Shown: positions 58,259 to 60,729 of the stretch, in pieces
How the letters are laid out: each line of letters begins with the position of its first letter
How positions within the stretch are numbered: position 1 is the first letter of the stretch
Assembly (NCBI RefSeq): GCF_009745975.1
Contig: NZ_WHOL01000086.1
Coordinates: forward strand, 1 to 64,000
Direction of reading: 5' to 3'
Source: Actinokineospora pegani
GTDB taxonomy: Bacteria > Actinomycetota > Actinomycetes > Mycobacteriales > Pseudonocardiaceae
Length of the DNA: 64,000 nt
Program-made: the position numbers and the translations under genes
Notes under the pieces: model-generated
Told to the model about the DNA's origin: nothing
Seen by the model: the letters and a program-made list of their open reading frames with translations, nothing else
Databases searched by the model: none

Positions 58259-59077
58259 GTGCCCGACCGCGCCGAGATCTCCGCCTGGCGGCCCTCGCTC
58301 GCGGGCGTGCGGGAGGTGCTGCACGCGCGGTTCACCGAGCACGCCTACCCCGCGCACACGCACGACGCGTGGACGGTGCTGATCATCGATTCCGGGGCCG
58401 TGCGCTACGACCTCGACCACCACGAGCACGGCGCGCTGCGCTCCCAGGTCACGATCCTGCCCCCGCACGTGCCGCACGACGGCCGCAACGCCACCGCCGA
58501 CGGGTTCCGCAAGCGGGTCATCTACCTGGAGCCCGACACCCTCGACCCGGCGCTGGCGGGCGCGGCCGTCGACAACCCGGCGGTCGTCGACCCCGTCCTG
58601 CGCGACCGGGTCGACCAGCTCCACCGGGTGCTGGCCCCGCACCACGAGGACCTCGAGGCCGAGAGCCGCCTGGCCCTGATCCGCGACCGCCTGCTGCGCC
58701 ACCTCGGCCGCCCCGAGCAGCACGCCCCCGACGACGCCACCCTCGCCCACCACCTTCGCGACCTGCTCGACAGCCGCACCGTCGAGGGCCTGCCCCTCGC
58801 CGAGGCGGCCGCGGTCCTGCACGCCCACCCCGCCCATCTCGTCCGCTCGTTCAGCGCCGAGTTCGGCCTGCCGCCGCACCGCTACCTCACCGGCCGCCGC
58901 CTCGACCTGGCCCGCCGCCTGCTGCTCGAGGGCCTGCGCCCCGCCGAGGTCGCCCCGGCCGCGGGTTTCTACGACCAGAGCCACCTCACCCGCCACTTCA
59001 AGCGCCTCTTGGGCGTCCCGCCCCACCGCTTCCGCTCGGTCCCCCGACGCTTTGGCGACACCGCACCCGTGGTCTAA
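58259..59077 (+). CDS. AraC-family regulator with cupin sensor
   Basis: The GTG at 58259 gives 272 residues. The N-terminal cupin (about 15-110) has FTEHAYPAHTHDAWTVLIID and LPPHVPHDGRNATADGFRKR. The C-terminal AraC double helix-turn-helix (about 165-265) has LAEAAAVLHAHPAHLVRSFS and EVAPAAGFYDQSHLTRHFKR, then LLGVPPHRF. It is divergent from the DUF2000 gene, a pairing seen often in actinobacteria. It probably responds to a small molecule. Confidence 0.9.
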   Translation: MPDRAEISAWRPSLAGVREVLHARFTEHAYPAHTHDAWTVLIIDSGAVRYDLDHHEHGALRSQVTILPPHVPHDGRNATADGFRKRVIYLEPDTLDPALAGAAVDNPAVVDPVLRDRVDQLHRVLAPHHEDLEAESRLALIRDRLLRHLGRPEQHAPDDATLAHHLRDLLDSRTVEGLPLAEAAAVLHAHPAHLVRSFSAEFGLPPHRYLTGRRLDLARRLLLEGLRPAEVAPAAGFYDQSHLTRHFKRLLGVPPHRFRSVPRRFGDTAPVV

Positions 59078-59080
59078 AAT
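59052..59080 (+). promoter_or_regulatory. Likely promoter of the HSP18-type regulator gene, leaderless
   Basis: TTGGCG at 59052-59057 and TAAAAT at 59075-59080 are separated by 17 bp. Transcription would start about seven bases after the -10, at the ATG at 59089 or one or two bases before. The mRNA would therefore be leaderless. No Shine-Dalgarno is present, in agreement. Confidence 0.55.
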
Positions 59081-59123
59081 GTCGTCTTATGGACGACGAA
59101 TCTCGAGTCATCGAAAGGACGAC
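59081..59123. promoter_or_regulatory. Paired 6-5-6 palindromes at the start of the HSP18-type regulator gene
   Basis: GTCGTC-TTATG-GACGAC (59081-59097) covers the predicted transcription start and the ATG. GTCATC-GAAAG-GACGAC (59107-59123) lies in the first codons. The two sites start exactly 26 bp apart. The same architecture with the same 26-bp spacing occurs upstream of hsp20 (60687-60729). The sites suggest autorepression. Confidence 0.65.
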
Positions 59124-59736
59124 TTTTGCGGAGAGCCCAGAGGTCGTGCTGCGCGGGGTGCTGCGCGCCCTCGACAAGGCGAGGGCGGGCACCGCGGAGG
59201 TCGAACCGCTGCTCGCGGCCCTGACCGCGCTGCGGGAGCTGCGTGACCGGATGGCGGCGTGGGAGCCGGAGTTGATCGGCGCCGCGCGCGCGGCGGGAGC
59301 CAGTTGGGCGGCGTTGGCCCCCGCGCTGGGCGTGACCAGCAGACAGGCCGCCGAGCGCCGGTACCTGCGGCTGCAGCCGACCGGGGGCGATGAGACCACC
59401 GGGGAGCAGCGCGTCCACACCCGCCGCGACCAGCGCGCGGGCGATCGCGCGGTGAGCAAGTGGGCGCAGGACAACGCGCGCACCCTGCGCACGCTCGCCG
59501 CGCACATCCACGGCCTCGACGACCTGGACGACGCCGCCAGGGAACAGGCCGACCGCATCGGCACGGCACTGGGCGACAACGACCCCGAGCGCTTGCTTCG
59601 GCCCCTGAGCGAGGCCCGTTCGCACCTGGCGGGCCGCCAAGACCTGGTCGACCGGCTGGACTCCATCACCGAGCGGACCGACACGGTCCGCCAGGAGGCC
59701 GCCGACTCGCGTCGCGCCGGGAAGCCCGCTCGCTGA
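59089..59736 (+). CDS. HSP18-type transcriptional regulator
   Basis: The 215-residue protein reads ESRVIERTTFAESPEVVLRG, VLRALDKARAGTAEVEPLLA, AALTALRELRDRMAAWEPEL, IGAARAAGASWAALAPALGV, TSRQAAERRYLRLQPTGGDE, the last two forming a helix-turn-helix (about 65-100). The C-terminal half is helical and charged (NARTLRTLAAHIHGLDDLDD). This is the actinobacterial family found beside small heat-shock protein genes and named after Hsp18 control. Here hsp20 lies 0.5 kb downstream on the other strand. Shared operators at both genes support a direct regulatory link. Confidence 0.8.
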   Translation: MDDESRVIERTTFAESPEVVLRGVLRALDKARAGTAEVEPLLAALTALRELRDRMAAWEPELIGAARAAGASWAALAPALGVTSRQAAERRYLRLQPTGGDETTGEQRVHTRRDQRAGDRAVSKWAQDNARTLRTLAAHIHGLDDLDDAAREQADRIGTALGDNDPERLLRPLSEARSHLAGRQDLVDRLDSITERTDTVRQEAADSRRAGKPAR

Positions 59737-59754
59737 CCCGGGTCGGGTGTGCGC

Positions 59755-60117
59755 TCAGGACAGGAAGCCCTCGGTGACCGAGTCCAGGAACTCCGCCACG
59801 GCCCCGGGTGCGGGCCGGGGCGTGTCCGCGCTGAGACGGGCGACGCGGGTCAGGTCGGTCCCGGCCTCCTGCGCCACCGACCAGCCCTGGTCCTCGTCCC
59901 ACACCAGGGCCAGCGGCCGGTCCGGGTGCGCCGGGCCGCGCACGTCCAGTGCGATGTAGACGGAGACGGGGCTGTCTTGGTCGACCATCACCGATTCGAC
60001 CCCGACGCCCACGGCCTCGGCGACCGCCCGCGCGTAGCGCCAGACCGCGATGTGGTCCACGACGAGGTGCGCGGGCTCGACGATGGGATCAGCGATGGGA
60101 TCAGCGAGCAGGGTCAT
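59755..60117 (-). CDS. DUF6292 family protein
   Basis: The 120-residue protein has HLVVDHIAVWRYARAVAEAV, VYIALDVRGPAHPDRPLALV, WDEDQGWSVAQEAGTDLTRV and ARLSADTPRPAPGAVAEFLD. This pattern, with WxEExGW and an N-terminal YxxAVAxxLG, is that of DUF6292, a common actinobacterial protein of unknown role. It lies downstream of hsp20 on the same strand (75 bp gap) and may be transcribed with it. Confidence 0.75.
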   Translation of the reverse strand: MTLLADPIADPIVEPAHLVVDHIAVWRYARAVAEAVGVGVESVMVDQDSPVSVYIALDVRGPAHPDRPLALVWDEDQGWSVAQEAGTDLTRVARLSADTPRPAPGAVAEFLDSVTEGFLS

Positions 60118-60192
60118 CTCTCCACCTCCCGGATCGAGTGCCGCCGACGCGAGGACAGGCCCGGGACGCGAGCGTCCCGGGCCTGCGCGCCG

Positions 60193-60627
60193 TCAGCCTT
60201 GGATCTCCTGCCTGCGATCGGCGGCCCCCACCGCGATCCGCCTCGGCTTGGCCTGTTCGGCCACGGGAATCCGCAGTGTCAGCACACCCGCGTCGTAGGA
60301 CGCGGCGATGTTGTCGGTGTCGAGGGTGTCGCCCAGGAACAACTGCCGGGAGAACACACCCAGCGGCCGCTCGCTGACCTGGACCTGCACGTCCTGGTCC
60401 GCGATCGGCCTGCGCTCGGCCTTCACGGTCAGCACGTTGCGCTCCACGTCGACCTCGATGGCCTCCGGGGCCACCCCCGGCAGGTCGAAGCTGACCACGA
60501 ACTCCTGACCCGACCGGTAGGCGTCCATCGGCATGGCCGTGGGCTTGGACCACGTCCCGGAACCGCCGCCGAAGAGCTGCTGGGTCAGCCGGTCGAACTC
60601 CCGGAACGGGTCGGTGCGCATCAACAT
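60193..60627 (-). CDS. Hsp20-family small heat-shock protein
   Basis: The ATG at 60627 follows AGGAGGT, which decides this start. The 144-residue protein has a short N-terminal region ([20 protein letters not shown]), the alpha-crystallin domain (about 42-130: [80 protein letters not shown]) and the C-terminal anchoring motif RIAVG (IxV). It is an ATP-independent holdase. Control is probably by the HSP18-type regulator at the operators 60687-60729. Confidence 0.95.
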
Positions 60628-60676
60628 CGTTCCACCTCCTGCTTGGGTCATTCCCTGTTGTCAACACGCAGGAGCA

Positions 60677-60705
60677 GTTATATCAGGTCATCGGAATGAT
60701 GACAA
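60677..60705 (-). promoter_or_regulatory. Promoter of hsp20
   Basis: On the minus strand TTGTCA (60700-60705) and TATAAC (60677-60682) are separated by exactly 17 bp. Transcription would begin near 60670, about 43 bases before the ATG. The proximal palindrome (60687-60703) fills the spacer and overlaps the -35, as expected for a repressor site. Confidence 0.65.
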
Positions 60706-60729
60706 CCAGAGCGTCATCGTGAGGATGAC
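60687..60729. promoter_or_regulatory. Paired 6-5-6 palindromes at the hsp20 promoter
   Basis: GTCATC-GGAAT-GATGAC (60687-60703) and GTCATC-GTGAG-GATGAC (60713-60729) are perfect palindromes starting 26 bp apart. Outside them CCCTGTTGTC (60653-60662) and its exact complement GACAACAGGG (60727-60736) form a longer inverted repeat around the region. The paired sites match those at 59081-59123. They differ from known HAIR and CIRCE sequences. Confidence 0.7.

Follow-up and report, generated by a model that had tools for sequence, protein, structure and literature searches.

In Actinokineospora pegani, the regulator and hsp20 genes described here very probably form a RheA-type heat-shock switch, in which a regulator with a predicted HTH would act on a double operator of two 17-bp inverted repeats. 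We analysed a 64,000-nt stretch of its genome (GCF_009745975.1, contig NZ_WHOL01000086.1, positions 1–64,000 of the forward strand; hereafter called the window). The regulator gene and the hsp20 gene are convergent, with a DUF6292 gene in between, and each has its own operator pair. In most of the relatives that we examined there is a single pair, which lies between divergent hsp20 and regulator genes. The double operator is conserved over three family-level actinobacterial groups (f1, f21 and f22).

Operator sites and promoters in the window

A pattern search of the window found the four exact GTCRTC-N5-GAYGAC sites reported in a preliminary description of this DNA. Two belong to the regulator gene: site 1 (59081..59097, GTCGTC-TTATG-GACGAC), which has an ATG inside it at 59089, and site 2 (59107..59123, GTCATC-GAAAG-GACGAC). 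The other two are the proximal (60687..60703, GTCATC-GGAAT-GATGAC) and distal (60713..60729, GTCATC-GTGAG-GATGAC) sites of hsp20. Within each pair the starts are 26 bp apart, as described.

The window has no exact match to the pattern beyond these four. At two mismatches it has 27 matches against a shuffle mean of 18.7, and 27 was reached in 3 of 100 shuffles. This enrichment is only mild, so that the signal resides in the exact sites and their pairing. Across the whole genome (6,438,191 bases) the single pattern occurs exactly at 11 places, four of which are the window sites (reversed-pattern control, 1); the seven elsewhere correspond to a density of about 0.07 per 64 kb. For the 43-bp double pattern, with up to three mismatches allowed, the genome has two places, both of them in the window (reversed control, 0). 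None of the seven other single sites has an exact partner within its 3-kb locus, and a crude reading-frame test gave no clear split between sites inside and outside genes. With pairs at only the two window places, we rejected a wider regulon in the A. pegani genome. A chance origin of the sites was likewise rejected, on the genome counts together with the family-wide and random-sequence controls given below.

The hsp20 gene (60193..60627, minus strand; PF00011, E 1.7e-21) is the sole Hsp20 gene found in the genome. Its reading frame is open to 60651, and the likely start is the ATG at 60627 behind AGGAGG (60640-60635) rather than the frame start at 60651. The sequence, aligned in relatives, gives a −35 TTGTCA (60705-60700) and a −10 TATAAC (60682-60677), both on the minus strand, and the −35 overlaps the proximal operator site. 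This site had been said to fill the spacer between the two hexamers. Indeed, 13 of the 17 spacer bases fall within it, as do four bases of the −35. The DUF6292 gene (59755..60117, minus strand; PF19809, E 2.4e-25) lies downstream of hsp20 on the same strand.

The hsp20 leader (60660-60672, minus strand; GCGTGTTGACAAC) carries a GTTGRC/GTCGRC element 20–22 bp past the proximal operator. In the window's family, 26 of 27 hsp20 promoters have this element, the window's own included; among Streptomyces-like hsp20 promoters, its GTTGAC form is found in just 3 of 67. We found no explanation for it.

The regulator gene (59089..59736, plus strand) encodes a protein of 215 residues belonging to the RheA or 'HSP18 transcriptional regulator' family. 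Its promoter is a prediction, and a weak one: a putative −35 TTGGCG (59052..59057, plus strand), weak alone, stands 17 bp before a putative −10 TAAAAT (59075..59080, plus strand), at which position many relatives have TAACAT or TAGCAT. Site 1 abuts this hexamer and covers the expected transcription start of the predicted promoter. The start codon is uncertain. In the closest relative (G045) and in many divergent relatives, the likely regulator start is just 3′ of the second site. The window codon that matches it is TTT, so that the window start should be either the ATG at 59089, inside site 1, or the GTG at 59146. The earlier placing of the pair on the start codon stands only for the ATG. If the start is ATG 59089 and TAAAAT is the −10, then the regulator message would be nearly leaderless.

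The simplest reading of this arrangement is that the regulator would repress both promoters sterically. At normal temperature, the regulator on the proximal site would block the hsp20 promoter between −35 and −10, with part of the −35 covered. It would also block its own promoter, where the first site abuts the predicted −10 and covers the expected start. Heat would then free the regulator from the DNA, a thermosensor step that we borrow from Streptomyces albus RheA. After release, hsp20 and the regulator would be made, and probably the product of the DUF6292 gene behind hsp20 as well. In most of the relatives examined a single operator pair would serve both genes back to back; in the lineage of the window the operator would have been copied, and the separated genes would each keep a pair.

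Conservation and spacing of the double operator

The check named in the preliminary description, a search of hsp20 and regulator promoters in relatives, found the pair conserved in 93 of 93 distinct hsp20 promoters. These promoters come from loci fetched by the regulator alone and were delimited by a start-codon rule; hsp20 genes that escape the rule are left out, and the window's own promoter is excluded. Some regulator loci had no hsp20 gene inside the fetched flank (L015, L031, L039, L050, L072, L179 and L185). Both sites are exact in 61 of the 93, and the spacing is 26 bp in 75, 27 bp in 17 and 28 bp in one. Among 1638 random 160-mers with no exact site, which served as the control, 3 had the pair. 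Moreover, the promoter fit is conserved: TT precedes the proximal site and a TA.... hexamer follows it at −10 distance in 91 of the 93, the hexamer being mostly TACAAC (60) or TAGAAC (12). The preceding TT yields a −35 of TTGTCA or similar, and the −35 therefore overlaps an operator half-site.

Adding loci fetched by the pattern or by Hsp20 gave 117 hsp20 promoters, only one of which lacks the pair (L212, in the regulator-less genome G190). By eye, this promoter contains a stretch, CTTGAGTCAAG, that resembles HAIR halves. A pattern-independent sample, taken from 10 genomes of the window's genus, comprised 16 Hsp20 places. Nine have the pair, namely the place in the window and eight of the 15 loci examined besides it; one has only a weak 25-bp pair and six have none, so that hsp20 is not always accompanied by a pair.

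The pairs are tied to the regulator gene. Among 200 genomes of the family, 99 have regulator homologues (89 strong, 10 weak). The 26-bp double pattern, at up to two mismatches, occurs at 62 places in 39 of these genomes, and its reversed control at none in all 200. The regulator is present in 38 of the 39 (Fisher p = 4e-15, kinship ignored); the exception, G011, is a 74% complete genome with hsp20 at its pair. Conversely, 51 of the 89 genomes with a strong homologue have no 26-bp pair at two mismatches. We sampled one locus from each of 20 of these, and found a pair at 27 bp in 14 and at 28 bp in five, with at most two mismatches in total. The sole locus without a pair belongs to the second regulator copy of G110; the first copy (L032) has a pair at 27 bp. 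With longer pairs in 19 of 20 sampled loci, 26 is one value of a 26–28 range. The exact 26-bp spacing of the preliminary description holds for the window and some clades, but not for the family. The proposal that the regulator acts on itself and on hsp20 is well supported by the comparison, because pairs travel with the regulator and overlap both promoters.

By arithmetic, centre distances of 26–28 bp correspond to about 2.5–2.7 helical turns, which would put two dimers on roughly opposite faces of the DNA; this gives no evidence of wrapping, which had also been suggested. The relatives with spacings of 27 and 28 bp speak against a single, strict helical phase.

It is unlikely that each pair holds a single real operator, with the second site minor or auxiliary. 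For S. albus RheA, the main text of PMC11754652 gives one rheO and a single shifted band on a native probe, which argues against two independently filled sites in that species. The distal site is also the less strict of the two, with zero, one or two mismatches in 64, 21 and 8 of the 93 promoters; the proximal site has zero or one in 90 and 3. Nevertheless, the spacing is held at 26–28 bp in every one of the 93. With the proximal site fixed, itself chosen as part of the best pair, the best second site among spacings of 18 to 44 bp always falls at 26, 27 or 28 bp, and the distal site therefore looks selected.

The regulator and its relation to RheA

The regulator (P0001, 23.6 kDa) has no Pfam or NCBIfam match at E ≤ 0.001, and neither do 50 of its homologues against NCBIfam at that threshold. 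Searching Pfam with 51 homologues at E ≤ 0.1 gave weak matches, most commonly to a Myb-like DNA-binding model (19 of 51). The predicted structure is all-helical and confident (pLDDT 91.5), and helices 73–80 and 85–95, which are rich in invariant residues, are the likely HTH of the model. Residues 1–10 have low confidence (53), as expected where an operator shapes the codons.

Against solved structures, the family profile matched Tako8 chains best (E 1.6e-5, residues 113–142), and no stretch passes by itself. The HTH region of the regulator is weakly similar to RelI (profile E 5.9e-4; P0001 alone 0.0042), and that of the profile to Rv2667 (E 0.065). These matches are weak or partial, and we do not accept any of the three as a proven relative. 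A Foldseek search with the regulator fold gave no match at E ≤ 0.001, an absence that shows nothing, and the best VIA Z of 5.6 is low for a helical protein. Sequence-profile and fold searches thus found no clear structural relative of the family.

The regulator is also present in 158 of 295 genomes of one large Streptomyces-like genus; in a sample of 394 genomes spread over the class it occurs in 29 (4 of 137 genera). Some genomes have two to four copies. Named Streptomyces plasmid records contain the same divergent unit, annotated 'HSP18 transcriptional regulator' and 'Hsp20/alpha crystallin'. Among plasmid homologues, some carry the label 'HSP18 transcriptional regulator', some 'type III effector protein', and others are called hypothetical. 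The second of these labels (records H1, H3, H4, H8 and others) looks like a mislabel, as suggested by the HTH-like sequence and, in H1, also by an operator pair and an hsp20 neighbour. With many relatives under another product name, annotation is weak evidence.

RheA is among the few repressors reported as thermometers. Its operator in S. albus, rheO, is reportedly TGTCATC-N5-GATGACA, and the window sites fit this sequence. The preliminary description knew of no described operator of this shape, and was probably mistaken, because the shape equals that reported for the RheA operator. In the literature searched, which covered few subscription journals, we met neither the operator sequence in print nor the double site as a conserved rule.

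We regard the system as a probable member of the RheA–hsp18 kind; our grounds for homology to RheA itself are the name that NCBI gives the product, the order of the genes and the size of the protein. According to the main text of PMC11754652, RheA is a reversible thermosensor that represses the divergent hsp18 and binds a region that includes the −10 and start point of rheA, and a native probe gives a single shifted band with it; RheA has also been applied as a heat switch in Streptomyces. The system shares several features with RheA–hsp18 of S. albus/S. albidoflavus. A small heat-shock gene is the target, by sequence here, and the regulator adjoins hsp20 in relatives of the window. The regulator promoter, a predicted one in the window, has the operator at its −10 and start. 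The proteins are of similar size (23.6 kDa for P0001, ~25.4 kDa for recombinant RheA in PMC11754652). Finally, the inverted repeat GTCATC-N5-GATGAC is probably shared with rheO.

There are also differences. In the window each of the two genes has an operator pair of its own, and the genes are convergent around DUF6292 in place of the divergent order, which is usual though not defining. Site pairs are the rule in the loci examined, whereas the main text of PMC11754652 gives one rheO. The 959-bp rheA-plus-intergenic length stated in that text is matched by none of the regulator loci that we examined.

We also think it improbable that the regulator is a paralogue that uses the same operator grammar to answer another signal, such as oxidative or envelope stress, and not temperature. 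Thermosensing is not readable from sequence, some genomes have two to four regulator copies, and in G045 the regulator sits with its operator beside a catalase-like gene (by eye). However, hsp20 is the commonest target, as it is for RheA, and both sequence and operator are continuous with the Streptomyces family, some members of which NCBI names for HSP18.

Two other systems place heat-shock genes under inverted-repeat or negative control. HspR exerts negative heat-shock control in actinobacteria through HAIR (CTTGAGT-N7-ACTCAAG), and HrcA acts on heat-shock genes through the inverted-repeat operator CIRCE (TTAGCACTC-N9-GAGTGCTAA). The window operator differs from HAIR in sequence and from CIRCE in sequence and spacing, and the window has no match to either consensus at up to three mismatches, in agreement with the preliminary description. 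It is very improbable that the sites serve one of these regulators or some other factor, with the regulator gene a passenger: HspR can control small heat-shock genes in other actinobacteria (acr2, in a passage of PMC2687793) and the HAIR-like stretch of regulator-less G190 lies upstream of hsp20, but HAIR and CIRCE are absent from the window, the pairs track regulator presence over 200 genomes, and one pair sits at the regulator's own 5′ end.

Locus history and targets in relatives

The probable RheA-type switch of the window has an unusual layout. In the closest relative, G045, the regulator and hsp20 also have separate pairs, on different contigs; in G167 the two genes are in tandem, with a single pair before hsp20. 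The G045 regulator and its pair are divergent to a gene that, by eye, reads like a large catalase (L188, G045:C20). The window locus has the look of a divergent unit that was duplicated and then reciprocally pruned. At the place where divergent relatives carry GTTCTAACAT (the hsp20 −10 in reverse), the window's regulator copy still has GGTCTAAAAT. Similarly, the hsp20 copy in G045 still has an ATG at the regulator start of the relatives. Both relics are short matches seen by eye, and are compatible with the copying of a divergent operator. A transposed regulator that carried its operator along, instead of a duplicated unit, would look much the same. We did not meet operator copying in this lineage in the literature searched, which covered few subscription journals.

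The regulon may be wider than hsp18, since pairs in relatives also precede extra hsp20, DUF6292 and DivIVA-like genes. We fetched 20 of the 62 places with a 26-bp pair, a choice aimed at places beyond the one closest to each regulator, although L276 and L277 are at regulators and L269 and L272 near one. This target list was picked by pattern and is a lead, not a frequency. Sixteen of the 20 pairs face an hsp20 gene (L264, L271 and L277 included). At L274 and L261 the pair faces DUF6292 genes, of which L261 has two divergent copies. Of the remaining two, L273 faces a DivIVA-like gene (Pfam E 1.6e-4, which does not reach the cut-off of the model) and L276 is at a regulator.

The pairs immediately before DUF6292 genes are those of L231/L274 (G167) and L261 (G141). 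At L234/L273 (G045:C51:22366-22408), an exact pair lies between a gene that looks MBL-fold-like by eye and the DivIVA-like gene, and no hsp20 was found in the 4-kb stretch.

DUF6292 is present in the short fetched flank of 15 of 29 regulator loci of the family (L015–L043). In 14 it lies beyond hsp20; in L031 DUF6292 takes the divergent position opposite the regulator. With DUF6292 beside hsp20 in so many relatives, the hsp20–DUF6292 order of the window is a common one. In the literature searched, which covered few subscription journals, we met no paper naming DUF6292, and neither DUF6292 nor DivIVA-like genes as targets.

More tentatively, and with rather less than even confidence, we propose that the functional RheA operator is a 43–45-bp double site for two dimers, that it governs a small heat-stress module, and that this module evolves by operator copying, the duplicated unit here being reciprocally pruned. 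If this is true, two dimers reading the double site together would give a sharper temperature response, and the regulon would be a module of hsp20 copies, DUF6292 and DivIVA-like proteins. The module would evolve by copying of the double operator, and each half of the window locus would have lost the other's gene to leave two separately controlled genes. The conserved, strictly spaced double operator offers an inexpensive means of testing how the switch recognizes DNA, and DUF6292 and DivIVA-like genes, with pairs in front of them, are candidate heat-response genes that are as yet unstudied.
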